Shown here: positions 19,890 to 36,850 of the stretch, piece by piece
Layout of the letters: every line of letters begins with the position of its first letter
How positions within the stretch are numbered: the stretch's first letter is position 1
Assembly (NCBI GenBank): GCA_947626055.1
Contig: CANQQP010000007.1
Span: 1-36,850, forward strand
Reading direction: 5' to 3'
Length of the DNA: 36,850 bases
Origin: an uncultured Bacilli bacterium
GTDB lineage: Bacteria > Bacillota_I > Bacilli_A > RF39 > UBA660
Notes under the pieces: generated by a model
What the model saw: only the letters and a program-made list of their open reading frames with translations
Told to the model about the DNA's origin: nothing
Database searches by the model: none
Translations under genes and position numbers: made by a program

Positions 19890-19942
19890 AAATTTTCCTC
19901 CATATTTCTTAATTTTATTATACTATATTTTTTTCTTAAATA

Positions 19943-20632
19943 CTATTTATATTTATGATTTTTATTAATAATTACGATAATAATTGCAACTACAAAGGCT
20001 CCAATGACACTTAAAATAATTATTAAGTTTAATTGATTATTTTCTTCTTTTATTTGTTCCTGAGTTGAATTTTCAATATTAGAAAGAATTATGGGCTTTT
20101 GATAGGCATTAGATTTATTTATTTTCCAAGTGTAGACATTATTTTCAATATAATCAGCATTATTATTGAGAATTTTTTGATTAGTTTTTATATTAACTTC
20201 TACTTCTTGGGCGGATATATATTTCTCGAAGCATAAAAATTCATTACTCGTTCTGATATCTATTTTATCATTAGTATTATAAAAAGTAACGTTTTCATAA
20301 CAGGTATTTATGATATTTGAATCTGCAAACTCCTCAGTAGTAAACGGATAACTAATTATTAAATTAGCTTTATTATCATCACTATTATTAGTAATATTAT
20401 AATAATCTAAATTAGGATCCTTTTCATATGAATCAGAATCTTGATCGCTATAAATGGTTCTGATATTCCCTGTGTAATTTTTAATAGTACTAAAGTACTC
20501 GTTATTAAGGTCGGTTTCTAATATATCTAGATTTTCTATAGCAGCATTGGGTGTAGTTAAATCTAAATCATATTTTATTGTACATCCTGATAACATGAAT
20601 AAAACTATACTTAAAAAGATAATTTTTTTCAT
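19943..20632 (-). CDS. Lipoprotein with C-terminal transmembrane helix, secretion-locus component
   Basis: No named family is recognised. The signal peptide ends in the lipobox LSGC, so C17 is probably lipidated. The extracellular part (about 180 residues) is rich in Asn, Asp and Tyr, and has two further cysteines. It ends with a hydrophobic helix (NLIIILSVIGAFVVAIIIVII) and a basic tail, so both ends are membrane-anchored. It starts right at the stop codon of the NlpC/P60 gene and lies before virD4, which argues for a role in the secretion apparatus at the cell surface. It has no similarity I can see to VirB7 or VirB8. Confidence 0.7.
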   Translation of the reverse strand: MKKIIFLSIVLFMLSGCTIKYDLDLTTPNAAIENLDILETDLNNEYFSTIKNYTGNIRTIYSDQDSDSYEKDPNLDYYNITNNSDDNKANLIISYPFTTEEFADSNIINTCYENVTFYNTNDKIDIRTSNEFLCFEKYISAQEVEVNIKTNQKILNNNADYIENNVYTWKINKSNAYQKPIILSNIENSTQEQIKEENNQLNLIIILSVIGAFVVAIIIVIINKNHKYK

Positions 20633-21838
20633 CTAAGCTCCTCCTCTACTATAATAGTCTGTCATATCTATAATTTGATTAGAATCACTATCAAAGGACA
20701 TGGTGCGAACACGCATACCCTCATCAGCTCCCGCTGCTTCCGCTACTTTATATTGTTTTGCTCCTTCATCAACTCCAACAATTATCATAATATGTCCGGG
20801 ATGAAAAACTAAATCACCAGGCTTAGCTATAAAACTGGAAGTCATAGGATGAGTTATACCGTAATTTGGAAAACTATCTGAGCCTTCGACCGGAAAATCA
20901 TAACCAGCATTATATATTGCCCAAGAAACAAATCCACTACAATCTAAACCAGAATAGTTGTAAGAACGATCATTAGCATAAATTGGACTAGCTAATTTGG
21001 AGCCCCACTGCCCACTAGCTAAACTAACTTTACTTCCGTGGCCGCCACCCCATTCATAAGGTAAACGAATTTTATATTCTTCGCATAAATCACTAGTGAT
21101 AGATAAAGCCGCCGCCACAACACCTTCACGCGTTTTTAAACCCGCACTTTCAATTTTTGATTTAATGTTATTATTAAAATCATCAATAGTTGTATTATGT
21201 TCAACTAATGCATCACTTAAAGATTTTCCAGAGAGTTGAGAGCATGTTTCAGTTGAAGTGGCATTACCTACTCTACCACTATTAAAAGAACCGTTACTAC
21301 TGCTACCTTCTGCATTAGTACTCATAAAACAAGCTAAGATCATTAAAATTACAAAAGAAAACAAAACACTAACTAAAAAGCCCCCAATGGCAATAGCGAC
21401 ATGTGGATGTTTCATAATAAAATTTAATATTTTCTTGTTTACATTACCTTTAAGATCACTAGCTTTTTCTTCACTATTATCTTCTTCTAAATTATTTTCT
21501 AATGCTTCACTTTCTGAATCAGTAAGATTTTCTTTAGTTTCAATTGGCTTTGGTTTAGAAAGACCTAACATAGTACCAGGAACTAAACTATTTGCTCTTT
21601 TAGGACTAGCAATTTGATTTAATGCTTCTTGACCAGCAGGAGTCTTTAATACTTTTTTTACAATTGCTCCACTACCTGGAGCAATAGTATTAGCAGCCAT
21701 AGCTACTCCTTCAGTTGCCACTTTGCTTTTAAGGGCTGACATTTTAGGATTAGTAGTATTTGCTGGCTTAGTTGTTGTTTGTTGTTGAAGTTCATTTATT
21801 TCTTCTGTTGAATTTTCTATATTATCAGTTGGATGCAT
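20633..21838 (-). CDS. Membrane-anchored NlpC/P60 peptidoglycan hydrolase of the secretion system
   Basis: Likely opens the cell wall for the secretion channel, the VirB1 role. The cytosolic N-terminus of about 145 residues is Thr/Asn/Glu-rich and contains an Ala/Gly helix (VAMAANTIAPGSGAIVKK). One transmembrane helix lies at about 147-172. The C-terminal NlpC/P60 domain has the catalytic C300 in GLDCSGFV, H349 in PGHIMIIVG, and the family's PGDLVFH. Wall hydrolases with a membrane anchor ahead of the catalytic domain are standard in Gram-positive conjugation systems, where they are often fused to a lysozyme-like SLT domain; that second domain is missing here. It lies 19 bases after virB4. 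Confidence 0.88.
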   Translation of the reverse strand: MHPTDNIENSTEEINELQQQTTTKPANTTNPKMSALKSKVATEGVAMAANTIAPGSGAIVKKVLKTPAGQEALNQIASPKRANSLVPGTMLGLSKPKPIETKENLTDSESEALENNLEEDNSEEKASDLKGNVNKKILNFIMKHPHVAIAIGGFLVSVLFSFVILMILACFMSTNAEGSSSNGSFNSGRVGNATSTETCSQLSGKSLSDALVEHNTTIDDFNNNIKSKIESAGLKTREGVVAAALSITSDLCEEYKIRLPYEWGGGHGSKVSLASGQWGSKLASPIYANDRSYNYSGLDCSGFVSWAIYNAGYDFPVEGSDSFPNYGITHPMTSSFIAKPGDLVFHPGHIMIIVGVDEGAKQYKVAEAAGADEGMRVRTMSFDSDSNQIIDMTDYYSRGGA

Positions 21839-21857
21839 TTGTTACACCTTCTAACTA

Positions 21858-23642
21858 TTATAATCCGCCGCCACTTCCAAAGGAATCTAATTCCTCTTGT
21901 GTTAATATAACATTAATTTGCATTCTTCTACTACCACAGACAAATAAAGCTTCTCCTTGATTGAAATATTTTATTCTTTCTTTTTCATTATCATTTAAAT
22001 CAACAAGTTGAGCTAAATCATCAACCGCTTGTTTACGTAGACCCATAATTAAATAATATGATGCATTATCAAATATGGCTTTACCATGCATTATTAAATT
22101 AGGGGAAGCAAAATCAGTAGGTTGTTGAGTAATAATTATTGTACCTGTATTATATTTACGGCTACGGCGTTGAATTTGAGCTAAGAATTCAGCACCAAGT
22201 TCATTACGACTAGAAAGTAATACGTGCGCTTCATCAACCATCATAATTGTATTTAATGATTTATCTAGACACAATCCCCAAGCATATTTTAAAATATTGA
22301 AAAATAAAGCATTACGAATATTTTCGTCACTGTTCATTAATTCGCGAATATTAAATACAATATAATTGCTATTTATCTTAATAGTTGTATGACCTGTAAA
22401 GTAATATCTTAATTCTTTAACTAAAGGACGAACTCGTAATTCCAAACGTTCCATAATATCGCGTTCTTGGGTCTTTTCTGGCATTGATAAAATTCTTCCT
22501 TTAATTGTGGCATAAACATCTTCAAAAGTTGGATAATCTTCGGATGTTAATTGAGAAAAGTCTGTATCAAAATCAATTTTATAACGTTTGTAAGTATCTT
22601 GAACAATCTCACTAAATAGAGCTAAAACATCATCTTCTATAGAAGGAGAATAATATTTCATAAAAGCTTTTAAAGATTGTAAAGTTCTCGTTAGAACTGT
22701 ATAACCAAGACCTTGGGCAATTTCTTCTTCATCAGCGTCCATGACAATTTCCAACGGATTTATCATACCGAATTCTCCACCCTTACCTAAGTCGATAAAG
22801 TCACCACCTAGATTGCGAGTCATTTCTTCTAGTTCACCTTCAGGGTCTATTGCTACTATCTTATAACTATTGCGAATATGATTACGAAGTAATAATTTAG
22901 CTGCTGTTGATTTACCACTACCAGATGTACCTAGAATAATCATATTAGCATTATTTCGATTATGCTCTTTTTTTATTTGATATAAAAATTGATTAAATAG
23001 AACTACTCCTCCGGAAAAGTCAACTCCTAAAAGGGTAGAATAGCCTGGATCTTTTATACTATCAAAAACAAAAGGATACATTGCCGCTATAGTTGGAGAA
23101 GGAATCGGCGTTCCAACGCGATCTTCAATATCTTGTTTAGGGAAAATTGGAATCATTGATTTTAGAACTTTTTCTTGTTCAAACATCAAAGGAATTCCAC
23201 GCATTCCTAAAGCATCTAAGAAAGAACGAACTTGAATTTTTTTCATATCCAATTCTTCTTTATTATTAGCTGTAATCATAATATGCATTTGAAAATCAAA
23301 AATTTTGGACTGAGTAGATGCTAGCATAGAAACAAATTGTTCTATTGATTCATAATCTTGTCTTATTCTTTCTTGAATGGTTCTATCTCTTTCATGTTGA
23401 TATCGAACTTTTAAATCAGCTATTTCTTTATTAAGCATTCTCGTCATTGTCGAAAATTCAATAGGGATATGTTTAATAACAACTTTAACACCAGATATAC
23501 TAGTTAGATTGGCTAAATAACCATGGGCAATATATTTAGGATAACTAACAATAGTTAAAATCGTCGCATATTTATCACTAATAACAAACTCTGTTGGTTT
23601 AAATAATAATCCTTTTGGAGCTATCTCACTTTTTAAACTCAT
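21858..23642 (-). CDS. virB4: VirB4/TrsE-family type IV secretion ATPase
   Basis: Cytoplasmic motor ATPase of the type IV secretion channel. The N-terminal domain (about 1-200) has the pattern GLLFKPTEFVISDKYATIL. It is followed by the RecA-like ATPase domain with Walker A GTSGSGKST (238-246), Walker B MMVDEAH (D470, E471), and a later QQPTDF motif. The length of 594 fits the TraE/TrsE group rather than the ~830-residue single-chain VirB4. It overlaps the upstream TrsD-like gene by four bases (ATGA). The order PrgI-TrsD-TrsE is the same as in pSK41- and pIP501-type conjugation operons. Confidence 0.94.
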   Translation of the reverse strand: MSLKSEIAPKGLLFKPTEFVISDKYATILTIVSYPKYIAHGYLANLTSISGVKVVIKHIPIEFSTMTRMLNKEIADLKVRYQHERDRTIQERIRQDYESIEQFVSMLASTQSKIFDFQMHIMITANNKEELDMKKIQVRSFLDALGMRGIPLMFEQEKVLKSMIPIFPKQDIEDRVGTPIPSPTIAAMYPFVFDSIKDPGYSTLLGVDFSGGVVLFNQFLYQIKKEHNRNNANMIILGTSGSGKSTAAKLLLRNHIRNSYKIVAIDPEGELEEMTRNLGGDFIDLGKGGEFGMINPLEIVMDADEEEIAQGLGYTVLTRTLQSLKAFMKYYSPSIEDDVLALFSEIVQDTYKRYKIDFDTDFSQLTSEDYPTFEDVYATIKGRILSMPEKTQERDIMERLELRVRPLVKELRYYFTGHTTIKINSNYIVFNIRELMNSDENIRNALFFNILKYAWGLCLDKSLNTIMMVDEAHVLLSSRNELGAEFLAQIQRRSRKYNTGTIIITQQPTDFASPNLIMHGKAIFDNASYYLIMGLRKQAVDDLAQLVDLNDNEKERIKYFNQGEALFVCGSRRMQINVILTQEELDSFGSGGGL

Positions 23643-24196
23643 GAACTAATCACCGTCCCAAAATTAGTTGTTGTTCCCCCATTTAAGAAATTATCTAAAA
23701 GCATTCGTAAATCTGAGTTGGATGCTTGCGCCGAATTTACACCTGCATTAGCCAAATTGGTAATTAAACTGTGAATCCGTTTTTGAATAATTTCTTGTTT
23801 TTTCTCTTTAAATAAAATGTAATATTCGGTATCGACTACACTCATTTCACTACTCATAAATAAATTTGCTTTATTAATATCTTGATCAATTAATTTTCTA
23901 ATCTCTGGACTAGGCGTATGGGAGTACAAAACTTGTAATTGCGAAAGATATATATTAATATCTACCGGTCTATCAGCTATTACTAACCAAAATTCGTAAT
24001 CAATAGCATTGTAGAAATTACGCATTCCATAAATCACATTGTTTTGCGCTTGTGCATCAAGAATAAAAATATCTTTTGATTCTATTTTTACTCCCGTTAC
24101 ATAATTGCCATTTTCTAACTCAATCATCCCATTCATGATGCTTTTAACAGGAACCCAATCTTCCGAATATTTCGATATACTAGCGTTCTTTGCCAT
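23639..24196 (-). CDS. TrsD/TraD-like component, N-terminal part of a two-gene VirB4 unit
   Basis: A 185-residue cytosolic protein with beta-rich character, resembling the TrsD/TraD proteins of Gram-positive conjugation systems and the N-terminal region of single-chain VirB4. The segment EDWVPVKSIMNGMIELENGNYVTGVKIE and the following DIFILDAQAQN look like the VirB4 N-terminal domain opening. No P-loop is present. It overlaps the PrgI-like gene by 17 bases at its start and virB4 by four at its end, so all three are coupled. RBS GGAGAGG lies 11 bases ahead of the ATG. Confidence 0.75.
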   Translation of the reverse strand: MAKNASISKYSEDWVPVKSIMNGMIELENGNYVTGVKIESKDIFILDAQAQNNVIYGMRNFYNAIDYEFWLVIADRPVDINIYLSQLQVLYSHTPSPEIRKLIDQDINKANLFMSSEMSVVDTEYYILFKEKKQEIIQKRIHSLITNLANAGVNSAQASNSDLRMLLDNFLNGGTTTNFGTVISS

Positions 24197-24488
24197 TTAC
24201 ACACCAACCTCTCCAATAATACTTTTTTCTTTTACTAAAATAATTATATATGTTATTTAATAAAGTTAACATATTGTGATAATTAGGAACCGGCATTACT
24301 AAGAATGCGGAGATTAAAGCCGGAAGTAATATTAATATAATTAGAAAAATGTTACTAGTTCTTATCACAAATAACAACACTAAAGTTATTACAACTCCTA
24401 TCAAAAAAATTATTAAATCTATGGGATTGAAAAAACCTAAAATTAATTTCGACTTTTTTGAATTAGCAGGTATTAAATAATTCCCCAT
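24180..24488 (-). CDS. PrgI-family small membrane protein of the secretion system
   Basis: PrgI/TcpE-like inner component of Gram-positive type IV secretion systems. The 102-residue protein has an N-terminal soluble segment (LIPANSKKSKLILGFFNPIDLIIFL, split across the first helix), two close transmembrane helices (about 26-45 and 48-66), and then a short cytosolic NYHNMLTLLNNIYNYFSKRKKYYW that matches the family's 'h.n....l....yl..rk.Y.w' end. Its position directly before the TrsD-like gene and virB4 is the usual one. RBS AGGAGGAAT lies ahead of the ATG. Confidence 0.82.
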   Translation of the reverse strand: MGNYLIPANSKKSKLILGFFNPIDLIIFLIGVVITLVLLFVIRTSNIFLIILILLPALISAFLVMPVPNYHNMLTLLNNIYNYFSKRKKYYWRGWCVNGKER

Positions 24489-24499
24489 TTTTATTCCTC

Positions 24500-27085
24500 C
24501 TATTTTTTATCTTTACCAAATGATATTTTTTTATCTTCCACCATTTTTGTAAAGAAATCTTGTAACTCTTTATTTGATTTATAATCGCCATTAGCTTTTT
24601 CTTCAGCAAGAGCTTTAACATATGCACGATCTTCGGCTGTTTTTGGATTAGCTTGAACATCACTTCTATACTCTTTAAGGACATTTGCAAAAGTCTCTGC
24701 TGTATAATTTCCATTAGCATCAACAGCTTCTTTAGCAACTTTATAGTTTTCATTAGTCTTTTTGAGTTGCTCAATGACTTCTTTATTCGCACGTTTTTGA
24801 AGATCTTGATCAATTGTTCTTTCACGCAAGTGATCATTTTTATATTGACGAGCTAGCTCAGAACTATTTTCTTTAATACCATCTAAGATGTAATCAGCCA
24901 ATCTTTGATTAATACGATTTTGTTCTTCAGCAGCTGATAACATCTCATTGTTATTTGCTGCTTCTTGACGAACGTCATTACGAGCTTCTGCTCGAGCTAT
25001 TGCTCTTAAATTATTATACTCTGCACTATTTTCAAAGGCTTGCATTCTTTGTCTAGCAGCCGCTCCTTCATTAGCATCATATTCGTTACGTAATTGTTGA
25101 GCTCTATTATTAATTGCTTGTGTAAATGCGGGACTATTTTCGACATTTCTAATTGTTTCGTTATAAGCTCTTTGAGCTTGCTGTAATCTCTCTCTTAGCA
25201 CTTCATTGTTATTTGGATCATCATGATGTTGAATATATTCTTGAAGTTCTTGAAGATGTTTTTCTAATGCTTGTTTAGTATTTGTTTTATAAACACTATC
25301 TATTTCACGGTTTATATTAGCGCCTATAGTATTGCCACCAAAATAGGAATGAGCATATTTATGATCACCAGTTACATCGCTAGAAACAGATTGATAGGTG
25401 TTTCTAAAGCTGCCTTTATGGTTTTTCCAACCACTTTGAAGGCCTTTTAAAGCCGCGGCTCTAGTAAGTCTGCCACTACCATCACCTTGAACTTGTGCAG
25501 CCCACATACCACCTAAAGCTCCACGCACAGCTCCAAAACCTTTAGCAGGTAGGGAACCAATTGCATTTAAACCTCTGACTACATGTTCGCCACCTACCAT
25601 ATCTTTTAGCTTGTTGCGAATATTTAATGAACCAGTATTGATGCTTATACCTAAAGCATCTGAAATTAATTTAGGAGCTTGCTTAACAAACATTAAAATA
25701 CCAATAATTACTGCGACACGAGCAATTGCTTTAGTTCCCCATGACACCGAATTTATATCCATTATTAACGGTGTTTTAATAGACATAAAGGAAATTTTGG
25801 TTAATATTGAATCTTCCCACATGTCTTGCACATTTGGTAAATGAGTAATCATAAAAATACCTAAGAATATAATAGCAATTCTGACAAATACTTCAAAATA
25901 CGATTGTAAAGTAAATTTAGTCCAACTATCAAACATTTTCTTCTGACTTGGAACAATACGAGCTAAAATTGGAATAGGAGCAATAAGCTGGGCAAAACCT
26001 AATTTTGCTGCTCTTAATCCCATATCTATACAATAAGAAATCATAATATAACAAACGAATAATCCCGCAATAGTTGAAAGAATTATAGAATAGTCAATTT
26101 GACCTTCATAAATAAAGTTAGATAAAAATTTAAATCCACTAAAATCACCAGTAGTTTTAGCATACTGCATTACAGATTTGAAATTTAAAGGAGCTTGTAT
26201 ATCATTTGAACGATTATATACTAACATTTCTGCAGCACAAGCCGATGCAGTAGAGCCATAGGCATATCCATCACTCATATTATGACAAGCATCATAACTG
26301 GCAATTTTATCATATAAATATTGCTCTTTAGCATTAAAATCATGATTATCTTCTGCCCAAGCACTATAATCAAAATCAGCATTATAATTTTGATTACTAT
26401 TAGTAAAATCATCCACGTTTTCACCTATTGCTTCGGCTTCAAGACGGGCTTCATCGACTTTTTCACTATATTCTTCATCAGTTAAATATGGATAGAAAAA
26501 GGAAGTAAACACATCGACCGCAATAGAATTACCAGCTAATGCCACCGAAGCAGAATCTCCAGTAGAATTCCATTTTATAAAACAAGTACCATCACCATTT
26601 ACAACGTACTCGTGTGGTCCTTTTAAAGTATTTAATTGTTCACACATATCAGCTTCAAAGGCTAATTCCAGAGTATCGGTTGAATACGAATAATTTCCTA
26701 AAATTATTTTTCCAATAATATTTTCTTCTAGTAAGATTTCTTGAGCTTGATACAAAAACGTAAATATTGTCGGTAATACGGCAATAAGTACTAAAGCAAT
26801 AACTGTATTAGAAATAATTTTTCCCATAGAGCTATCACCTTTTACCAAAGAATCAGGATCAGCTATACTTTTTAAAATGGTATAAGCTAGGAAAAATAAC
26901 ATTATAACACCTAAAATAACATACACACGATTTATAAAAATTTCAAATGTTTCAGTGCGGAATATTCGCGCACTACTGATTAACATATATAGTTCATATA
27001 ACCAACCAACAAATTTATAAATTACAGAATCTATTGTTACAAAAAAACCATATATTACATCCCATATTTGGCCAGCATCAAACAT
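24500..27085 (-). CDS. VirB6/TrbL-like polytopic channel protein with long helical C-terminal tail
   Basis: Probable membrane channel component. The N-terminus has three hydrophobic helices (about 12-36, 48-70, 88-112). These are followed by an extracellular loop of about 200 residues containing several cysteines, then at least three more membrane segments (about 330-350, 385-410, 440-470). The C-terminal ~370 residues are soluble and strongly helical (Ala, Asn, Gln, Arg, Glu-rich), including a Gly-rich start and repeated NNRAQQLR-like segments, likely a cytosolic coiled coil. This layout is that of VirB6/TraL proteins in Gram-positive systems. It lies 11 bases before the PrgI-like gene. The family call rests on topology and place, not on a motif. 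Confidence 0.75.
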   Translation of the reverse strand: MFDAGQIWDVIYGFFVTIDSVIYKFVGWLYELYMLISSARIFRTETFEIFINRVYVILGVIMLFFLAYTILKSIADPDSLVKGDSSMGKIISNTVIALVLIAVLPTIFTFLYQAQEILLEENIIGKIILGNYSYSTDTLELAFEADMCEQLNTLKGPHEYVVNGDGTCFIKWNSTGDSASVALAGNSIAVDVFTSFFYPYLTDEEYSEKVDEARLEAEAIGENVDDFTNSNQNYNADFDYSAWAEDNHDFNAKEQYLYDKIASYDACHNMSDGYAYGSTASACAAEMLVYNRSNDIQAPLNFKSVMQYAKTTGDFSGFKFLSNFIYEGQIDYSIILSTIAGLFVCYIMISYCIDMGLRAAKLGFAQLIAPIPILARIVPSQKKMFDSWTKFTLQSYFEVFVRIAIIFLGIFMITHLPNVQDMWEDSILTKISFMSIKTPLIMDINSVSWGTKAIARVAVIIGILMFVKQAPKLISDALGISINTGSLNIRNKLKDMVGGEHVVRGLNAIGSLPAKGFGAVRGALGGMWAAQVQGDGSGRLTRAAALKGLQSGWKNHKGSFRNTYQSVSSDVTGDHKYAHSYFGGNTIGANINREIDSVYKTNTKQALEKHLQELQEYIQHHDDPNNNEVLRERLQQAQRAYNETIRNVENSPAFTQAINNRAQQLRNEYDANEGAAARQRMQAFENSAEYNNLRAIARAEARNDVRQEAANNNEMLSAAEEQNRINQRLADYILDGIKENSSELARQYKNDHLRERTIDQDLQKRANKEVIEQLKKTNENYKVAKEAVDANGNYTAETFANVLKEYRSDVQANPKTAEDRAYVKALAEEKANGDYKSNKELQDFFTKMVEDKKISFGKDKK

Positions 27086-27102
27086 ATTTTTTCACCTACA
27101 AT

Positions 27103-28116
27103 CTATTGAATTCCACATGTAGAACTATCTATAACACTTAAAATTAAATTAATTATGGTTGGTATTAAGAAAAATATAATTCCAAATATTATTCTTTTCA
27201 AGAAATTAACATTGGCTTTTTTAAAAGCATCTTGATTTTGAGCAGCAATGGCTTTAGCATAATCTATTACAGAAAAGGCAAATACCAATATTACTACTGC
27301 CATTTTCATATAATCAAATATTTGTTGCAATAAAGCCCCAACAGTGCCATTTTGATATTTTCCATCAACCTTATTTCCCAAAAGTCCATTACAAGTGTTT
27401 AGGTCTTCATCATTTTGCGAATTTGACGCACCGTTTTGTCCATTACCTGGTTCACCAGTTCTTTCAAATTCACTTCCCCAAATAACATAATTATAATCTG
27501 GATTAGATCTTACATAACTATCAATAAAACTTTTAGTACTACTATCGCCAGCATAAATTTGTACATTAGCAGCATCTGCTTTAGCATCACTAATAACAAC
27601 ACCTAAATATTCAGGACATTCAGAACCTAAATCAATATTAGGTAAACTTACAGTTTGGTTTTTTCCTTGGGCATCAACATATTTTAAATTAGTATTAAGA
27701 TATTTACTAGCTGCACTAGAATAATCTTTTGTTTGCATTTCTTTTAAATCATTTGTATTTAAAACACATCTTTTATCTTGATCATCACTTTTAGCTCGCT
27801 GAACTATTCCAGCAATAAGGCCTAAAGAGTGCCCAAATCCGCCAAGAGAACTCAGTGTACCATAAAGCAATGGAGTTGTTACATTCTTAATATCCTCTGA
27901 TACATTACAGTTAATCTTTGGCCCTTGCAAATTTTCAAATATAGCTTTAGCATTAGAATTTGAGGGGTTATTAATAGTTAATTCAGCATATTCATAATAT
28001 CCGCCCGATTTATCACGACTATTATAAAAACACGTTTTAGTTTCAGCTGATACTGAAGTTGTAAAACATAGAAAACTTATGCTAATTAAAAGAACGAAGA
28101 TTATAACTTTTTTCAC
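27103..28116 (-). CDS. Secreted protein with ectodomain fused to a VirB2-like two-helix hairpin
   Basis: The 337-residue protein has a signal peptide (to about residue 27, ending VSA), an extracellular domain of about 230 residues with six cysteines, and a C-terminal pair of transmembrane helices (about 268-290 and 306-328). The hairpin contains VIDYAKAIAAQNQDAFKKA and IIFFLIPTIINLIL, closely like the separate VirB2-like protein at 29143-29478 (SIDFGKAVVAQ...IIFILPSVIM). This suggests a fusion of a pilin-type membrane unit with a surface domain. The ectodomain family is unknown to me. The start is GTG behind AGGTGATA, with an extended -10 promoter upstream. It is the first gene after the Rpn insertion and probably heads the channel operon. 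Confidence 0.7.
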   Translation of the reverse strand: MKKVIIFVLLISISFLCFTTSVSAETKTCFYNSRDKSGGYYEYAELTINNPSNSNAKAIFENLQGPKINCNVSEDIKNVTTPLLYGTLSSLGGFGHSLGLIAGIVQRAKSDDQDKRCVLNTNDLKEMQTKDYSSAASKYLNTNLKYVDAQGKNQTVSLPNIDLGSECPEYLGVVISDAKADAANVQIYAGDSSTKSFIDSYVRSNPDYNYVIWGSEFERTGEPGNGQNGASNSQNDEDLNTCNGLLGNKVDGKYQNGTVGALLQQIFDYMKMAVVILVFAFSVIDYAKAIAAQNQDAFKKANVNFLKRIIFGIIFFLIPTIINLILSVIDSSTCGIQ

Positions 28117-28203: not shown

Positions 28204-28234
28204 AAAAAAGTAACGATTATTTATTCGTTACTTT
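28204..28234 (-). terminator. Terminator at the end of the Rpn-family gene
   Basis: AAAGTAACGA (28207-28216) and TCGTTACTTT (28225-28234) form a perfect 10-bp stem; a T run follows on the minus strand. The stop codon lies in the loop region. Confidence 0.85.
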
Positions 28235-29039
28235 CTTTAAGAATATTTTCTAGTTTTTCTAAGGTAATGTTTAGTGATTTGCAAATGACTTCTTTGGCTA
28301 CACCATTTTTGGATAAATTTATGGCAGCTTCTTTTTGAGCTTTGGCTATCCCTTGGCCTACATATTCTTCTTCTATTAACCAACTATTTAATTTTTCTTT
28401 TAATTCTTTATCATAGGCTGCTGATACTTCCGGATCGCCACTTAGTCTTTTTAACTCCTTGACTGCTTCCTTTAACTCTTCATCACTATACTTACTCATA
28501 TTCCACTCTTTCTCCTCTTTAAATATTTGTAGCCATCTTAAGTTGTCATTTATTTTCTTACTTCTTAAATTTAATATGTGTATCTCTAACATATCTGTTA
28601 CTTCTTCTTTGGTCTGTATATCATACAGTCTACTCGTATTATGTAACTTTGTAAAGTTTTGATCATTATAATCAAGAACACATATTCCAATATATTTCTT
28701 TATTTTTTTATACTCTTCGCCACTTTTTAAACTTCTATCGGCTAGTTTGCCTAAATAATAAAATATCCTACTAATCATTTTTCCTTCATTATATTTTTGC
28801 ATTTCGACTATAACATAATTTTCTTCATCAAATTTTACTAGGACATCTAAAAAGTTCTCTTTTCTTTTTTCGTTATCTTTTTCTAAATAGGTATCCAAAT
28901 ATTCTATCTTTTGAATTTTCTTTTTTAAAACGTCTTCCAAGAAGTCTTTTAAATATCTTTCATATCTAAACAATGCTTTAAATATTCCATCGGATGTTAA
29001 AGGGACAAATGGGGATGTTGTAACTGGTATATTATTCAC
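28221..29039 (-). CDS. Rpn-family PD-(D/E)XK nuclease (annotated 'transposase' family)
   Basis: A 272-residue member of the Rpn/YhgA-like PDDEXK family, which carries a nuclease fold and promotes recombination but does not encode a classical transposase. Visible features are the start SDGIFKALFRYERYLKDFLEDVL, the nuclease core FLDVLVKFDEENYVIVEMQ with the D...E-x-Q pattern (about residues 63-81), and a basic/helical C-terminal region ending in a short leucine helix (SLNITLEKLENILKE). It has its own terminator, and it interrupts the secretion operon between the VirB2-like gene and the VirB2-fusion gene. It does not look like a secretion component; I read it as an inserted selfish or recombination gene. 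Confidence 0.85.
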   Translation of the reverse strand: MNNIPVTTSPFVPLTSDGIFKALFRYERYLKDFLEDVLKKKIQKIEYLDTYLEKDNEKRKENFLDVLVKFDEENYVIVEMQKYNEGKMISRIFYYLGKLADRSLKSGEEYKKIKKYIGICVLDYNDQNFTKLHNTSRLYDIQTKEEVTDMLEIHILNLRSKKINDNLRWLQIFKEEKEWNMSKYSDEELKEAVKELKRLSGDPEVSAAYDKELKEKLNSWLIEEEYVGQGIAKAQKEAAINLSKNGVAKEVICKSLNITLEKLENILKESNE

Positions 29040-30575: not shown

Positions 30576-31082
30576 TTAATTAGCTATACCAGCATTCCCG
30601 CTATTTTTACTTCCATCATAGTTAGCTGGATATTTTATTTTTATGGTTTCACCTTTAACTTTAAAATTACCAATTTGGCCTATAACAGGCAAATCAAATT
30701 TTAAAAACAATTCAATATTATAGTAACCAGTTTTTTCGCTACTAACTGTAAATTCTACGCAATAATTATATTTATTATTTTTCTTAGCTTTAGAAATGCT
30801 GCTAGCCGAAGTTTCGAAAATATTTACGCCATAGCAATAAGACTTATTTACACAACCACATTTTCCTTGAGCATTATAGCCAGAATTAGCTAAATATTTA
30901 TTAATAATTGGTAATGAAGTATTCTTACTTATACCTTCGTATTTTTCAATGATATTAACTACTTCATTCTTAGTTTTAAATGCGGTTGAATAATTAATCA
31001 TTACCGTAAGATATGCAACAAATATCAACATAAAAGTAATGACTAAGCCAATTAACCAAGCTCCTCCTATTGATTCTCTCAT
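30576..31082 (-). CDS. TadE/TadF-like minor pilin (second)
   Basis: A 168-residue protein with an N-terminal hydrophobic helix (WLIGLVITFMLIFVAYLTVMIN) and an extracellular beta-rich domain with several cysteines (CGC...C...C). It starts MRESIGGA, identical in seven of the first eight residues to its neighbour at 31085-31609. It resembles the TadE-like proteins that sit as minor pilins at the base of Tad pili. The next gene starts 18 bases after its stop (tadZ). A TadE/F distinction is not possible from sequence alone. Confidence 0.65.
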   Translation of the reverse strand: MRESIGGAWLIGLVITFMLIFVAYLTVMINYSTAFKTKNEVVNIIEKYEGISKNTSLPIINKYLANSGYNAQGKCGCVNKSYCYGVNIFETSASSISKAKKNNKYNYCVEFTVSSEKTGYYNIELFLKFDLPVIGQIGNFKVKGETIKIKYPANYDGSKNSGNAGIAN

Positions 31083-31084
31083 AC

Positions 31085-31609
31085 CTACACACCTTCCTGG
31101 CCATTTTTGATTACATCAGTTACTACTGGCATTTTAATATAGTTACCTATATCTTCATTAGGTGAATAAATATTGGCCGAATCAGCCTGAACATTAAAAT
31201 TAAATCCATTAAGTATAGGCACTTCAATACGGTAAAAAACTTTTATACGATAATAATATACTTGTGGCAATTCTTGTCCCTCATTCGAAGTCACTGCTAT
31301 TTTCTTTAAACAATAATTGGCTAGCTCATTATCTCCAATTGGTTTTGTTCCATTTAATTTAAAAGGGGTCCATCCTACTTCCTTTTTACCATCATTACAT
31401 TCTCCAGATGATGTATAATGAGCTTCTTGTAAAGCAATAGATATATTTACAGGATTAATACCCTCATCCTTTTTAATTTGGTTGTTTATAGAGTCAGTCA
31501 CTTTATAAGCAGCAGTGTAATTAATTGAAAGACAAAAATAGGCAGTAAAAAGAAGTAGTAATACAATTACTATTTGGAATAAACTAGCTCCTCCTATTGA
31601 TTCTCTCAT
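31085..31609 (-). CDS. TadE/TadF-like minor pilin (first)
   Basis: A 174-residue protein that begins MRESIGGA and has a hydrophobic helix at about 9-30 (LFQIVIVLLLLFTAYFCLSIN), then an extracellular domain with two cysteines. The N-terminus and helix match the neighbouring minor pilin, so these two are paralogues. The last part is Lys/Val-rich (VVTDVIKNGQEGV). It lies two bases before the second minor pilin gene and 12 bases after the first small pilin. Role inferred from place and topology: minor pilin or pseudopilin of the Tad-type unit. Confidence 0.65.
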   Translation of the reverse strand: MRESIGGASLFQIVIVLLLLFTAYFCLSINYTAAYKVTDSINNQIKKDEGINPVNISIALQEAHYTSSGECNDGKKEVGWTPFKLNGTKPIGDNELANYCLKKIAVTSNEGQELPQVYYYRIKVFYRIEVPILNGFNFNVQADSANIYSPNEDIGNYIKMPVVTDVIKNGQEGV

Positions 31610-31621
31610 ATAACCACCTTT

Positions 31622-31852
31622 TTATCCTTTAAACTTACAAGAAAAAGTTTCCGTTTTGCCTTTTAAATGACAATCCACCATACCATCGTTATTAGTATCC
31701 TTTTTGGCACAAATAGCTTTACTGCAATTCATTTGCTGTTCCTGATTTTTATCCATTATCGGCCAAATAACCCCATAGAAAAAAGCCACTAGGATAGCTA
31801 CTGACGATATAACAACTAATGACATATTTAGTTCTCCTGTCGCTTCTTTCAT
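31622..31852 (-). CDS. Small four-cysteine pilin-like protein (copy 1)
   Basis: A 76-residue Flp-like pilin. It starts MKEATGELNM, followed by one hydrophobic helix (SLVVISSVAILVAFFYGVIWP) and a short extracellular domain with four cysteines. The N-terminal ten residues are the same as in the copy at 31886-32125, but the cysteine domain is quite different. There is no long basic leader and no classical G-xxxx-E-Y prepilin site. RBS AAGGAG lies ahead of the ATG. It is expressed with the pilin operon. The pilin role is inferred from size, topology and neighbours. Confidence 0.72.
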   Translation of the reverse strand: MKEATGELNMSLVVISSVAILVAFFYGVIWPIMDKNQEQQMNCSKAICAKKDTNNDGMVDCHLKGKTETFSCKFKG

Positions 31853-31885: not shown

Positions 31886-32125
31886 CTACTCAGTTTTAGT
31901 AACTTCATTATTATTGACATCTTGAGTAGCGTCTTTTACACACTCATCATAGCAAGTTTGATCTACTCCAGTTCCAGTTGACGATGGGCATTGAGTTTTA
32001 CAAGTATTATTTGCAATACTTTTTTTAATTCCAGGCCATACAAATGCGTAGAATATAGCCGCTATCGCTGCTATTGCTACTACTGTTATAACTGTCATGT
32101 TTAATTCTCCAGTTGCTTCTTTCAT
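31886..32125 (-). CDS. Small four-cysteine pilin-like protein (copy 2, operon leader)
   Basis: A 79-residue Flp-like pilin: MKEATGELNM, then a hydrophobic helix (TVITVVAIAAIAAIFYAFVWP), then a short extracellular domain with two CxxxC pairs (CKTQC, CYDEC) and an Asn/Thr/Glu tail. It is the first gene after a strong promoter, with AGGAGG 12 bases before the ATG. The helix-coding part shares a perfect 73-bp stretch with the leaderless copy at 32286-32528. The cysteine domains of the three copies differ but each has four cysteines, which suggests a conserved fold with varied surface. Confidence 0.75.
   Translation of the reverse strand: MKEATGELNMTVITVVAIAAIAAIFYAFVWPGIKKSIANNTCKTQCPSSTGTGVDQTCYDECVKDATQDVNNNEVTKTE
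32034..32106. repeat. 73-bp direct repeat, copy in pilin 2
   Basis: Identical to 32464-32536, base for base. It codes for the pilin helix and reaches five bases past the internal ATG into the leader-like N-terminus. Confidence 0.95.
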
Positions 32126-32158
32126 TTATAATCATTCCTCCTTATTTTATACATTTTT

Positions 32159-32188
32159 ATTATACCCTAGTTTTATTAGTATTATCAA
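32159..32188 (-). promoter_or_regulatory. Promoter of the pilin operon
   Basis: Minus strand TTGATA (32183-32188), 18-bp spacer, TATAAT (32159-32164). It lies between the expressed pilin genes and the inverted pilin fragment. Confidence 0.78.
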
Positions 32189-32225
32189 TAAAAATTATAC
32201 ACTTACATAAAATATTTTACATTTT

Positions 32226-32283
32226 ATGACAGAAATAACAGTAGTAGCAAATTGCCACTACTTAGCAATAGCAGCTAGCGGCC
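32226..32283 (+). repeat. Inverted, degenerate copy of the pilin 5' coding region
   Basis: On the plus strand, 32226-32250 matches the pilin start (as read on the minus strand from 32098 or 32528) at 23 of 25 positions: ATGACAGaaATAACAG and then TAGTAGCAA. After 18 extra bases that form a local hairpin (32241-32261), the match resumes with TAGCAGC-TAGCGGC. The fragment points opposite to all pilin genes. It has no useful reading frame of its own and could also act as a weak hairpin terminator for the leaderless copy. Confidence 0.75.
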
Positions 32284-32285
32284 TT

Positions 32286-32528
32286 TTATTTTCCTTGATC
32301 CTGTTGTTGATCACAAGGAATGGCTGCACCAGTAACTCCCTTATAAGTTACAGTACAACTTCCGCCTCCGCAACTAATACTATAGTTATCGCCTTCATCG
32401 CTATAAGTTTGGCCACCAGATGCTGAACAAGCATTTTTAGCTAATAATTGTTTTTGTATAGATGGCCATACAAATGCGTAGAATATAGCCGCTATCGCTG
32501 CTATTGCTACTACTGTTATAACTGTCAT
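32286..32528 (-). pseudogene. Leaderless pilin copy 3 (silent cassette or remnant)
   Basis: The frame codes for 80 residues: the same helix as pilin 2 (TVITVVAIAAIAAIFYAFVWP) and a third, different domain with four cysteines (NAC, SISC, GGGSC, IPC). The MKEATGELN start present in copies 1 and 2 is missing. Upstream, only the codons for Leu-Asn are shared, and a stop follows at once in frame. No RBS is near the remaining ATG; the DUF4143-type pseudogene ends just ahead of it. It also has no promoter of its own. I therefore treat it as not expressed, while its intact frame shows it has not decayed. Confidence 0.7.
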
Positions 32529-32536
32529 GTTTAATT
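32464..32536. repeat. 73-bp direct repeat, copy in the leaderless pilin
   Basis: Identical to 32034-32106. Homology breaks exactly at the upstream end of AATTAAACATG, where the leader-coding part of the gene should be. Confidence 0.95.
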
Positions 32537-32541
32537 ATTAT

Positions 32542-33779
32542 TTAATTTTTTAGATTTCCAATAGAAACTACATAGACACCATCTTCTCTTACATATGATA
32601 ATTTAGAGCCTGTTAAAACCATCAAAAAGATAGGTTCTCCACTTTTATTTAAGTCTACTTTGTTTTTAAATTTTATTAAATGTTGAGCTGCTTCATCAAT
32701 TTGTTTGGCTCCTAATTTAACTTCAATTGCACCCCATTTACCATTTTCTGTTCTTAAAATATAATCAATTTCAAAATCTTTATTATCTCTATAATAAAAT
32801 AATTCTGCATTAATAGAATCAGCGTATATTTTTAAATCACGATAACATAAATTTTCAAATAGGAAGCCAGTAAAATTTAAGTCGTTTAATAAATCATTAC
32901 TTTTCAATCCCAAGGCAGCTATAGCTATTGAAGGATCTACTAATTGCAATTTAGATGTCGTTCGAATTTGCGTTGATGACCTTAAATTTAAGTTTGTCGC
33001 GGGAACATATTCTAAAACAAATAACTTCTCTAAAGTAAGAAGGTAATCATCAACTGTAGGTCGCGAAATTTCTGTCGAAAAAATATTTATAACATCATTA
33101 TAAATTGTTTTTTTATTTGTAACTGTGGATACATTTCGACTAATACTTTTTAAAACAGCCCCCATTTTAATTTTATCTCTTACTGTACCATCTACAGACT
33201 GTATTTCTTCATTAATTAAACTTTCCACGTATTCTTTAGCAATCTTATATTTATTTTGCCCTTTTACATTTAAGGTTTCTGGCCACCCACCTCTAATCAT
33301 TATATTAATGATATCTTCTAAGTCTAACTCAGATATTGCCGATATTTCTTTCCCAACAATTACATCAGCTAGGGATACTAACCCATTAGAATCTTGTGAT
33401 TCAAATAAAGACATGGGCCAGTACCAGAGTGCATAATTCCTTTTTCTACGGGTTTAGCTGAGCCTGTTAATATGTATTGCCCTTTTAAACCTGTATTATC
33501 AACATCTGTGCGGATACTATCCCATATCACAGGATACATTTGCCATTCATCAAATAATCTTGGTTTATCTCCCTGTAAAAATAAAGAAGGTTTAGTATCA
33601 TTGATATTATCATACTGAATTTTATTATCAGGATTTTGTAATTCAATTACACTTCTGGCAATTTGTTTTGCAGTTGTTGATTTTCCACAATACTTTGGTC
33701 CTTCTATTATAACAGCACTCATATATTCTAATTTGTTTTTTAAAATATTATCAGCAATTCGTGGTAAATATTTTTTCAT
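32542..33779 (-). pseudogene. Broken AAA ATPase with DUF4143 domain
   Basis: Two overlapping frames form one gene. The N-terminal frame (33779-33378) has Walker A GPKYCGKSTT, Walker B RLFDEWQ and the sensor LTGSAKP, then HSGTG. The family continues HSGxGRI..L.MRPMSL; here the frame shifts and the C-terminal frame resumes at PMSLFESQDSNG (33414 onward). About eight codons plus a non-triplet remainder seem to be deleted at the junction near 33416. The C-terminal part holds the DUF4143/nuclease-like domain (FEIDYILRTENGKWGAIEVKLG). Such ATPases are common as lineage-expanded accessory genes. It sits between the tadC terminator and the leaderless pilin, and its stop lies 13 bases before that pilin's ATG. 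Promoter and RBS (AGGAGG) are intact. Confidence 0.85.
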
Positions 33780-33924: not shown

Positions 33925-34713
33925 CTAAATATTTATCATCATCATAACAGCTAGGACTAGAAGTATCATAACACCTAAACCTGTTGTTACTAACATGCTC
34001 ATTGTTTTACCTTCCATTTTCTCTAAACGTTCTTTGTACTTAGTCTCACGTGCTTTTAACTGTAAATTAGAAATTGTTTTTGAAAATGTAACTAGTTGTT
34101 CTTGTTTTCTTTCCTGACGTCCTAAACTAAGACGATATAAAAGTCGCATCATACGCATGGAATCACGAACTGGATAGTCGCGTGCAAATTGCATGTATGG
34201 TTCAATTGAAGAATCGCCAGCATTAATTTGTTCAACTAGTTGTTTTAAACCTGATTTAAATATTTCCGGTGCATCCTCAATAGACTTTGCTAAAGCAACG
34301 GGAACTGTATAATGTTGAATAAGTATTTCTAATCCTTTTAAATAATAAGGAAGCAAAATATCTATCTCATGTAAATGTTTTTTATAGTAAGATTTAATAT
34401 TTATATAATCAAGCTTAAACATTGCAAATCCTGCTAATAAAGCACACAAAATATAAATATAATTTAAATCAGTTATAAAGAAGAATATTACAACTACTAT
34501 AGCTATAAGGCCATTTCGCAATCTTTTATTAAATAGAGCATCGGCATCGGCATTTTCACCATATTTAGCTTTAACATAAAAATCCCAATCATCTTCTTTT
34601 AATTTTTTAAAATATACTTGATTATCAGAAATAAAACGATTAGTACTAATTCTTCCAGTATAATTCATTATAAAAAATACGATAAGACCAAGGGCTAAAA
34701 TTTCTAAATACAT
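33925..34713 (-). CDS. tadC: TadC-like inner-membrane platform protein
   Basis: Type II/IV pilus F-domain platform protein of the Tad system, 262 residues. One hydrophobic helix at the N-terminus, a pair in the first third (LIAIVVVIFFFITDLNYIYILCALLAGFAMF), the cytosolic T2SSF-type helical domain with LLPYYLKGLEILIQHY and MRLLYRLSLGRQERKQEQL, and a last helix (MSMLVTTGLGVMILLVLAVMMM). The start overlaps the tadB stop as TAATG, the usual tight tadB-tadC coupling. It ends at a strong terminator. Confidence 0.83.
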   Translation of the reverse strand: MYLEILALGLIVFFIMNYTGRISTNRFISDNQVYFKKLKEDDWDFYVKAKYGENADADALFNKRLRNGLIAIVVVIFFFITDLNYIYILCALLAGFAMFKLDYINIKSYYKKHLHEIDILLPYYLKGLEILIQHYTVPVALAKSIEDAPEIFKSGLKQLVEQINAGDSSIEPYMQFARDYPVRDSMRMMRLLYRLSLGRQERKQEQLVTFSKTISNLQLKARETKYKERLEKMEGKTMSMLVTTGLGVMILLVLAVMMMINI

Positions 34714-35606
34714 TATTCCACCCCCACATCAGCATTATAGTATTTCTCTCCTGACATAAGGAAAAAACTATTTATTAAAATAATTGCATGTAATATTAAG
34801 GCTACATACCATAAATCGAGTAAGGCTATATATTTATCTTTACCAAGAAGCATTATCATTGCTAATACTAAGAAATATAAAGCTAAACCGAAAGTTAAGA
34901 ATTTACGATGGAATTGTTTACGATCCATTCTATCTCGATAAACACCTTCTACTAAGGCATCGATATCCATAGCCATATTTTCTAAGGCTTCCCCCGAATC
35001 AATTGCGCCTTCTTTGGTAATTTGTAAAAATAATTGATGCATATTTTTTACCATGTAATAAGGATATTTTTCATTAAAATAAGTAATTGATTCATCAATA
35101 GTTCCGTTTTGATATGATAATTCAATCATCTTTTTTACATCTCCCAAAACCGGTTCTTCTAAAACCCCAGAATCCCTAACACCTTCTAAGGATTTAACAA
35201 AACTTTGGGTTGTATTAAATTCCATGATAACGTTTGTTGTATAAGTTTGAATTTGTTCAAAAATAAATTCACTATAAACTCTTTGGCATCTTAAATATGC
35301 TAAATAAGGAATAAACATGACAGCCACAAATGCGTACACTAAGGCCCATATAATAGAAAAGAAATATAAATAAGCAATACCACCGGCAACAATGGCAAAT
35401 ATAGCAACTTGGGTAACGTATTGTCTAGTAGTATATTCTTGTCCTAATTCCTTCGTTTTTTCCCTTACCATTTTAAAACTATATGGCGCATATTTATTAT
35501 AGGCAGAAGCAACACTTCTAGTAACAAATTGATAGACATTTTTACCATCATTCATTCGATAAGCAATTATAAAAACGGTAATAACTAATAAAATTACTAA
35601 AACCAT
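34713..35606 (-). CDS. tadB: TadB-like inner-membrane platform protein
   Basis: Partner of TadC, 297 residues. N-terminal helix (VLVILLVITVFIIAY), a pair near residues 70-105, a cytosolic helical domain (FEQIQTYTTNVIMEFNTTQSFVKSLEGV, then EALENMAMDIDALVEGVYRDRMDR) typical of T2SSF proteins, and two helices near the C-terminus. It lies 16 bases after the ATPase gene, in the order cpaF-tadB-tadC. The charged EGAIDSGEALENMA region matches the conserved 'l..iG..s.aL..la' segment of the family. Confidence 0.83.
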   Translation of the reverse strand: MVLVILLVITVFIIAYRMNDGKNVYQFVTRSVASAYNKYAPYSFKMVREKTKELGQEYTTRQYVTQVAIFAIVAGGIAYLYFFSIIWALVYAFVAVMFIPYLAYLRCQRVYSEFIFEQIQTYTTNVIMEFNTTQSFVKSLEGVRDSGVLEEPVLGDVKKMIELSYQNGTIDESITYFNEKYPYYMVKNMHQLFLQITKEGAIDSGEALENMAMDIDALVEGVYRDRMDRKQFHRKFLTFGLALYFLVLAMIMLLGKDKYIALLDLWYVALILHAIILINSFFLMSGEKYYNADVGVE

Positions 35607-35622
35607 ATTTTAACCTCTCTTC

Positions 35623-36850
35623 CTATAATACATCTGTTCCACCAATAGGTTCTAATGGTGGGATAGGATTATTTATATTTGGTACAACATCATCAACTAC
35701 AGGTTGTAATTCTTGAACGCTAGTCATATTTGACTGAGAAATATTATTTGACTCTACATTATCTAGACTGAGTTCTTGAAAACCATCTGTTTCATTTAAG
35801 GCCTCTATTTTTTCTTCGGGTAGAGTTTGATTTACTTCATTTAAATTATTTACTTGAGGATTAGTTATATTTCCATTTACCACCGTACTTGATTGTTCAA
35901 CTGGAGTATTTGACTGAACAGTTGGTTCATTAACTGGTTGTTGGAGTGGCTCCGTTGTTACAGTTGGTTGTGGAGCTTCCATCTTAGGCTCTTCGGTTCC
36001 CTCCGTATTATTTAACATATCATTAACCTCAGCAGTTTTTTCTAGATTACTTGGTTTATCAGCATCTGGGTTTTCTCCATGCAAGTTGAAAGTATCTTCT
36101 GGTAAATAAACATTGCCTATACTTAAATAATCTAATAATTGTCTAGTCGGATTGTTCATCGTAACTTGTCCATCTAAGGTTTTCTTATAAAGTATATTAG
36201 ATTTTGGCTTGTTATCATCATCAACATAAAATTCACAAACTTCAATAATTTCCCTTTGAAAACGATTAAGCTTTTTTGAAAAATAACCTTTAACATAAAT
36301 ACCTATTTGGACATATCTATGAATTGAAGCTAAGAATTGATCGGTGTCTTGTGAAGACTCCAGTAAGGAGTACATACGCATTGGAATACTACTAGCTTTA
36401 TCAGCATGAATTGTTGATAAAATATGGTGTCCTGAAGAAATTGAATTACGAACAGCTAGAACTGCTTCAGCACTACGAACTTCGGATAGTAATATCCAGA
36501 TAGGATTCTGACGCATACAAGTAACTAGTACATCAGAGTATGAAGCAATATTATTAGTCTTCATAGCTACTATATCTCTATCAGGATATATTCGATCCAA
36601 GTGTAATTCCAAGGTATCTTCTATAGAAATAATTTTTTCGTTTTCTCTAGTTTTAGAGGCCAAATATTTTACTAATTCAGTTTTACCTGAACCAGTTTCT
36701 CCACTAACAATTATATTACAATGCCCAAGAACACATTGTTCTAAGAAATTGTGCAATTTCTCAGTCATGTATTCTTCACTTAATAATTTTTCTTTATTTA
36801 AACGAATTTTGGCAGGAGTTTTACGTATAACGCAAGCAATACCATTGGTA
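35623..36850 (-). CDS. cpaF: CpaF/TadA/VirB11-type secretion ATPase with long disordered tail, 5' end outside window
   Basis: Traffic ATPase that powers Tad pilus assembly, and in VirB11 form, type IV secretion. The frame remains open to the window edge; the ATG at 36768 is internal. Counting from it, Walker A is GETGSGKT (23-30), the Asp box IEDTLEL (49-55), the Walker-B-like LLSEVRS (93-99; usually GEVR, here SEVR), and the His box SSGHHILSTIHADKA. The ATPase domain ends near residue 225. A tail of about 150 residues rich in Asn, Gln, Pro, Thr and Glu follows, unlike normal CpaF; it may bind the other apparatus parts. Next genes are tadB and tadC. The N-terminal domain is not in view. Confidence 0.9.
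   Translation of the reverse strand, partial: TNGIACVIRKTPAKIRLNKEKLLSEEYMTEKLHNFLEQCVLGHCNIIVSGETGSGKTELVKYLASKTRENEKIISIEDTLELHLDRIYPDRDIVAMKTNNIASYSDVLVTCMRQNPIWILLSEVRSAEAVLAVRNSISSGHHILSTIHADKASSIPMRMYSLLESSQDTDQFLASIHRYVQIGIYVKGYFSKKLNRFQREIIEVCEFYVDDDNKPKSNILYKKTLDGQVTMNNPTRQLLDYLSIGNVYLPEDTFNLHGENPDADKPSNLEKTAEVNDMLNNTEGTEEPKMEAPQPTVTTEPLQQPVNEPTVQSNTPVEQSSTVVNGNITNPQVNNLNEVNQTLPEEKIEALNETDGFQELSLDNVESNNISQSNMTSVQELQPVVDDVVPNINNPIPPLEPIGGTDVL

Follow-up and report, generated by a model that had tools for sequence, protein, structure and literature searches.

A leaderless pilin copy as a candidate silent donor for domain exchange in a Tad-type pilus locus of uncultured Bacilli

INTRODUCTION

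Silent-cassette pilin variation is best known from the type IVa pili of Gram-negative pathogens. In the Piv system of Moraxella, inverted repeats in the 5' coding part of the pilin join one promoter and leader to either domain, and in the R64 shufflon and in invertons, short inverted repeats lie around the promoter or C-terminal segments. The silent pilin copies of Neisseria lack a promoter, a ribosome site, and the constant 5' region, and every copy is followed by a 65-bp 3' repeat (PMC6796969). A structure-forming DNA element, the G4, lies upstream of the expressed pilin gene (PMC3547852). In Gram-positive Tad/Flp pili, TadA/B/C-like genes and small leadered pilins are found in one locus, the Flp motif being E5-Y6 after the cleavage site; in a term search, the survey of these pili did not mention pilin duplication, tandem copies, or recombination (PMC3244431). 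We found no report of a silent Tad pilin cassette among open-access papers.

Here, we analyzed contig C7 in its whole length of 36,850 nucleotides (the window). It belongs to G000, the small genome of an uncultured gut-type Bacilli bacterium (1.05 Mb, 60 contigs, 86% complete), and was compared with relatives coded G001, G002, G003, G005, G006, G007, and G008. A sequence-only reading had placed at 32034-32536 a silent pilin cassette next to an expressed pilin and had proposed recombination between them. That span covers the silent copy (copy 3) but takes in the expressed major-pilin candidate (copy 2) only by its shared 5' part. The best explanation of our results is that copy 3 probably serves a Tad-type (Flp-like) pilus as a silent donor in the exchange of pilin domains.

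RESULTS

A Tad-type pilus locus containing a leaderless pilin copy

As shown in Table 1, the minus-strand locus runs from the genes for a T2SSE/TadA-like ATPase, a TadB-like protein, and a TadC-like protein through a broken DUF4143 ATPase gene to pilin copies 3, 2, and 1. Two TadE-like genes, a CpaE-like gene, and then type IV secretion-type genes follow. The T2SSE/TadA-like ATPase gene, for which a T2SSE match was found, is truncated by the contig end. With a TadA ATPase, TadB/TadC-like neighbors, and small leadered pilins, the locus is of the Tad/Flp type. The pilins themselves gave no significant Pfam or NCBIfam match, and the two TadE/F-like genes gave no match in a Pfam search. As read from the sequence, the pilin leader MKEATG/ELNMT has no E-Y pair at positions 5-6, and the pilin is therefore termed Flp-like and not canonical Flp.

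Table 1. Positions of the pilus genes, repeats, and control elements in the window and of the silent frames in three related species
Feature	Position	Strand	Description
Tad-type assembly genes	33925..36849	-	TadC-like 33925-34713; TadB-like 34713-35606; T2SSE/TadA-like ATPase 35623-36849
AAA_14/DUF4143 ATPase pseudogene	32542..33779	-	directly upstream of the silent copy
Silent pilin frame, copy 3	32286..32528	-	MTVITVVAIAA helix and C-terminal domain, 4 Cys, type alpha
Exact 73-bp repeat, silent copy	32464..32536	-	direct repeat
Exact 73-bp repeat, expressed copy	32034..32106	-	direct repeat
40-bp frozen core, silent copy	32497..32536	-	AATTAAAC + ATGACAGTTATAACAGTAGTAGCAATAGCAGC (AATTAAAY plus 32-bp core)
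40-bp frozen core, expressed copy	32067..32106	-	same core as silent copy
IRR	32226..32275	-	50-bp inverted, interrupted core copy; conserved, non-coding; between silent stop and promoter
IRR hairpin	32240..32262	-	AGTAGTGGCAATTTGCTACTACT; formed by an extra arm interrupting the reverse-complement core
Copy 2 promoter	32159..32188	-	TTGATA-18-TATAAT, 11/12; position kept in G008, G001, G005
Copy 2 ribosome-binding site	32137..32143	-	AAGGAGG
Copy 2 leader-coding region	32099..32125	-	MKEATGELN; missing from copy 3
Expressed major-pilin candidate, copy 2	31886..32125	-	C-terminal domain type gamma
Third pilin-like gene, copy 1, leadered	31622..31852	-	found in each of the seven genomes of the genus that have pilins
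Two TadE/F-like minor pilin genes	30576..31609	-	31085-31609 and 30576-31082; MRESIGG leaders
Orthologous silent frame, G008	L028:5250-5444		
Orthologous silent frame, G001	L029:6210-6395	-	
Orthologous silent frame, G005	L030:7482-7664	-	

The frame of copy 3 is open for 80 codons from the pilin's internal ATG, without the MKEATGELN leader or an AAGGAGG-type ribosome site. Just one weak promoter-like match (9/12) was found near it, ending 5 bases before the ATG, in a region with 18 such matches versus 13.5 in shuffles. Copies 3 and 2 lie 430 bp apart and share the 73-bp exact repeat. This identity is far beyond chance, since no other exact direct repeat with copies less than 1 kb from each other exceeds 25 bases in the whole window. 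The C-terminal parts contain four cysteines each, and their tails have no significant similarity (z ~0.3). The sequence-only observation of an intact frame without leader, ribosome site, or convincing promoter, of 73 identical bases, and of a differing four-cysteine domain was thus borne out. The G000 junction contains a ATTAAACAT microhomology. An AlphaFold model of the silent frame (a long N-terminal helix and four strands; pLDDT 64, low confidence) is consistent with a pilin and was put to no other use. No further pilin copy was found in the 86%-complete G000 assembly, nor any of the additional leaderless cassettes for which the earlier reading had suggested looking.

Several other features of the locus were recorded. 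A 25-bp exact repeat (31059-31083 and 31586-31610), the second longest close direct repeat within the window, lies where the two TadE-like genes begin, in the region coding for the MRESIGGA leader. The AAA_14/DUF4143 frame is disrupted by a 25-bp deletion relative to G007, in which an intact, 97% identical copy occupies the same place after tadC (L037:197-1459); the G007 assembly has neither a pilin nor a CpaE-like gene. T4SS-type genes (17676-28116) follow the Tad pilus genes directly and in the same direction, making a combined Tad and T4SS locus. They include VirD4/TraG-like (17676-19889), NlpC/P60 (20633-21838), VirB4-like (21858-23642), and PrgI/TcpE-like (24180-24488) genes and a gene for a large membrane protein (24500-27085), and parts of this gene order are repeated in related genomes. 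An Rpn-type PD-(D/E)XK nuclease gene (PDDEXK_2, 28221-29039) is nested among the pilus/T4SS genes, with a related-looking nuclease gene at about the same place in G003 (L031:6798-7634). The stretch from tadC to the pilins varies in gene content between species (L028:1742-5184, L030:7693-15188, L034:3150-5985, and L033:7759-9001), holding YfhO and GT2, amine oxidase and membrane proteins, DUF6020, or DUF4143. It is a variable insertion spot, possibly with surface-sugar genes. Rfam gave zero matches within the window, and no match was found to viral contigs or plasmids.

The silent copy recurs in three related species

Nine genomes of the genus were searched for pilins, and seven contained leadered ones. 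In G008, G001, and G005, the first pilin copy, like copy 3, has no MKEATG leader. In all four species, homology to the expressed copy starts at AATTAAAY, 8 bases before the ATG, and a ribosome site before the silent frame is absent (4/4). The DNA upstream of the silent copies is unrelated between species and contains the ATPase pseudogene, glycosyltransferase-type genes, or other genes. The orientation of the unit is identical in 4/4 genomes (one genome per species). The public records for three of these four genomes describe MAGs of uncultured Bacilli that were assembled separately, and two of the records bear the label Lapin. An assembly error as the source of the 73-bp identity, the artefact named in the sequence-only reading as a possible refutation, was rejected as unlikely because four separate MAGs carry the same structure. 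The silent copy is absent from G003, G002, and G006. On the operon tree, the unit is patchy (G006 and G003 are without it), a distribution that requires repeated loss or transfer from one species to another. The comparison set consisted of one genome per species, that is, four sequences with short domains from incomplete MAGs.

A frozen core and an inverted hairpin element

The 32-bp core ATGACAGTTATAACAGTAGTAGCAATAGCAGC had 0 mismatches among 8 copies from 4 species, and the 40-bp core was invariant in all eight copies bar one C/T, synonymous codons included. In 118 family genomes, and likewise in G003, G002, and G006, synonymous codons are used freely for this peptide. The probability of ten identical codons across the four species was log10P = -7.1 (~1e-7), using the codon identity of three flanking genes and assuming vertical descent and site independence. 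Leader codons just upstream of the core vary between species, and hence the freeze in the expressed copy also begins where the silent copy starts. This codon pattern demonstrates a DNA-level constraint on the 40-bp core in both copies. It also bears on the earlier proposal that perfect identity reflects recent exchange: 40 of the 73 bases are invariant across species apart from the one C/T, and their identity is therefore no sign of recent exchange, so that the argument holds for the other 33 bases only.

Between the two copies lies an inverted, interrupted copy of the core, termed IRR, which is absent from the sequence-only reading. Within it, the 38 bases AAGTAGTGGCAATTTGCTACTACTGTTATTTCTGTCAT do not differ between G000, G008, and G005 and differ little in G001, whereas the flanking non-coding DNA is not conserved. 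A 16-bp sequence, ATAACAGTAGTAGCAA, is common to both cores and the IRR, in which it is inverted, and 25-bp inverted repeats (92%, 127 bp apart) flank the promoter and leader. The IRR occurs only where the silent copy occurs. A pattern search of 291 family genomes matched G000 and G008 only; G001 and G005 were outside this draw, and their IRRs were read directly. Beyond the core, the IRR tracks the silent copy of its own species, with scores for silent versus expressed copies of 38.2 versus 29.0 (G005), 30.8 versus 26.0 (G001), and 27.4 versus 23.4 (G008), and a tie in G000 because its two copies are identical. The predicted RNA fold of the unit was strong against shuffles in the four species (z -8.5, -6.8, -8.9, and -8.6), an outcome that the inverted repeat itself produces and that is compatible with either DNA or RNA as the acting form. 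A 2-base difference between IRR and core is conserved in three species, and a G in the hairpin arm is conserved too. This conservation suggests that the IRR has a function of its own. A mobile element with terminal inverted repeats was rejected, as no target duplication was seen by eye.

Probable exchange of sequence and domain types between silent and expressed copies

The blocks shared by the silent and expressed copies measured 73 (G000), 50 (G008), 41 (G001), and 44 (G005) bases. Species-specific changes were present in both copies (AATTAAAT and GGTAGCGG in G008, GCAGCC in G001, and GATT in G005), a pattern of concerted evolution that suggests repeated exchange inside each genome. The pN/pS of the silent frames was 0.47-0.73, compared with 0.56-0.68 for comparisons involving expressed copies. 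These ratios demonstrate that the silent frames are constrained as coding sequence, about as strongly as the expressed copies.

The C-terminal tails fell into three clusters. Cluster alpha, defined over about 50 residues (z 5-7), contains the silent copy of G000, the expressed copies of G008 and G001, and both copies of G342, a genome of another genus; with the alpha tail alone as query, a genome search gave no G008 or G001 match at E <= 1. Cluster beta contains the silent copies of G008, G001, and G005, and cluster gamma the expressed copy of G000 together with expressed genes of G177, G043, and G283, genomes of other genera (z 5-11). The silent domain of G000 is thus of the type expressed in G008 and G001. 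The CpaE-like proteins of G000 and G008 are 99% identical, yet their expressed pilin domains differ, and the expressed helix DNA of G000 has 2 changes from the silent copy of G008 and 6 from its expressed copy. Together, these results indicate that the silent copy is maintained for its coding content and probably recombines with the expressed slot. No convincing 3' repeat or 3' similarity between silent and expressed copies was found in the four species (p 0.04-0.85).

In G342, two fully leadered pilins stand in tandem (L082:2009-2904). Their helices are nearly the same, their tails have diverged, and the remnant of a third pilin-like gene lies between them. These and the fully leadered tandem duplicates at L049 were rejected as examples of the same unit; they are ordinary duplications in which the hairpin is absent.

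Recombinase genes

Tyrosine, serine, and IS110 recombinases were searched for in the four incomplete MAGs, and none was common to all beyond Xer-like enzymes. G000 has no serine recombinase and one tyrosine recombinase, of the Xer type, and no IS110 enzyme was found in G008. None of the pilus-locus genes examined encodes a dedicated recombinase. These counts favor general recombination, absence being weak evidence in incomplete MAGs.

DISCUSSION

The comparisons among four species establish, at the level of sequence, the shared architecture, the constraint on the core, the concerted evolution of the cores, the coding constraint on the silent frames, and the presence in the silent slot of a domain type expressed in relatives. 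We infer from them that RecA-type recombination would be the route of exchange, that the IRR would promote it, and that surface variation would be its outcome; the bacterium may change its pilus surface through this unit. The invariant N-terminal helix sequence in copy 3 would serve as the homology block, with the alternative cysteine-bearing surface domain carried alongside. This silent domain would be expressed only once recombination across the core joined it to the promoter and leader of copy 2. By one route, gene conversion would swap the silent domain in at the expressed slot. By another, a crossover between the direct repeats would excise a circle on which the promoter, leader, core, and silent domain make up a complete gene, and the copy remaining in the chromosome would have no leader. 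The IRR could act as an inversion site, or it could promote DNA breaks close to the expressed gene, the role of the G4 in Neisseria (PMC3547852).

The donor role proposed by the sequence-only reading is the best-supported one, given the four species, the concerted evolution, the coding constraint, and the domain types; the reading is supported in part, and the shared 3' repeat that gives Neisseria its second crossover is missing. The gene conversion route is weakened because 3' homology is absent. A counterpoint to the donor role as a whole is that simple recombination between direct repeats deletes the promoter and leader without a domain swap. One silent copy per genome also implies a small repertoire. 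It is conceivable, if doubtful, that the 40-bp coding core and the hairpin-bearing IRR form a new recombination system, as dedicated sites that move pilin surface domains between the silent and expressed slots and are served by a housekeeping enzyme such as Xer or RecA.

The IRR and the two cores could instead be the recombination sites of a site-specific DNA inversion switch, in which inversion between the IRR and the expressed core would flip the promoter and leader and turn the operon off, and a second inversion, between the silent core and the IRR, would bring the silent domain under the leader. The inverted repeats around the promoter and leader fit such a switch, as does the conservation of a non-coding element present only alongside the silent copy, and for 4/4 species, two inversions in silico yielded a complete leadered pilin that carries the silent domain. 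However, this product faces away from the rest of the operon, which loses its promoter, and the sequence by which the IRR extends beyond the core agrees with the silent copy and not with the expressed copy. The four genomes share one orientation, and a dedicated recombinase is absent nearby, only Xer-like enzymes among the three classes searched being common to the four genomes; we regard the switch as unlikely. The conserved IRR could also mean that the unit acts as RNA or as a transcriptional barrier, either through a core-IRR panhandle or with the IRR as an antisense or terminator element controlling the pilin, the silent frame being incidental. The strong fold in four species (z -6.8 to -8.9), the pairing of the IRR extension with each species' own silent copy, the terminator-like hairpin on the sense strand, and a conserved G-U pair would agree with this. 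The fold, however, is automatic from the inverted repeat and leaves DNA and RNA function unseparated, a promoter for such an RNA is absent, and by eye the upstream genes end in terminator-like hairpins in several species. The coding constraint on the variable domain would be left without explanation, and so would the shared AATTAAAY left end, which the IRR leaves unpaired. An RNA role is in our view quite unlikely.

That open frames persist in four diverged species with pN/pS like that of expressed copies also argues against a decaying duplicate, a functionless tandem pilin copy that lost its leader and owes its identity to recent duplication or passive conversion. Fully leadered tandem duplicates do occur elsewhere in the family (G342 and L049), the adjoining DUF4143 gene is a pseudogene as well, and a deletion could have left the microhomology at the G000 junction. 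On this account, however, the frozen 40-bp core and the conserved IRR are unexpected, and decay, a reading already disfavored, appears improbable. The open and constrained frame might, finally, be translated as it stands into a small membrane protein acting on pilus assembly, and in G000 the weak promoter-like match ends close before its ATG. This match was unseen in the other three species, the ribosome site is absent in 4/4, and the domain type in the silent slot of G000 differs from that in the other three, making direct translation extremely improbable.

Among known systems, integron cassettes with their attC hairpin resemble the unit in that a frame without a promoter precedes an imperfect inverted repeat able to form a hairpin. 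Here, however, the promoter is downstream of the cassette and not upstream of it, no integron-type integrase is nearby (the sole tyrosine recombinase of G000 is Xer-like), and the attC core sites RYYYAAC/GTTRRRY were not seen in the IRR by eye. The R64 shufflon and invertons also have short inverted repeats, but here the recombinase is not adjacent, the repeats are within coding sequence, and inversion was unobserved. As in Moraxella Piv inversion, inverted repeats in the 5' coding part of the pilin could join promoter and leader to either domain; unlike there, a Piv-type gene is not adjacent, an IS110-family enzyme was not found in G008, two inversions are required, and the inverted state was unseen. 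The locus is like those of Gram-positive Tad/Flp pili in combining TadA/B/C-like genes and small leadered pilins.

The closest parallel is Neisseria pilE/pilS. In all four species, the silent copies resemble those of Neisseria in being partial, promoterless, 5'-truncated, and open in frame. Both systems have promoterless partial copies with variable domains, one promoter-bearing expressed copy, signs of exchange, and a structure-forming DNA element upstream of the expressed gene (the G4 there, the IRR hairpin here). In Neisseria the G4 is accompanied by a small RNA, and exchange depends on RecA. The element here is an AT-rich hairpin in place of a G4, and G-runs of the quadruplex kind are absent from the spacer by eye. 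Neisseria has a type IVa pilus, up to 19 silent copies, and the 65-bp 3' repeat, whereas this locus has a Tad/Flp-like pilus, one silent copy, and no 3' repeat; the constant 5' coding region is missing from pilS, but here the helix is retained in the silent copy and only the leader is absent. If the donor role is correct, the silent-cassette strategy would extend to Tad-type pili and to host-associated Bacilli that are non-pathogens, in which a variable surface may be a response to phages, host antibodies, or neighbors. This compact locus, in which 430 bp separate the single silent copy from the expressed one and a conserved hairpin lies between them, could serve as a model for how directed gene conversion starts. 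Silent pilin donors are known from Neisseria; this locus differs in its pilus class, retained helix, single donor, missing 3' repeat, and inverted hairpin.
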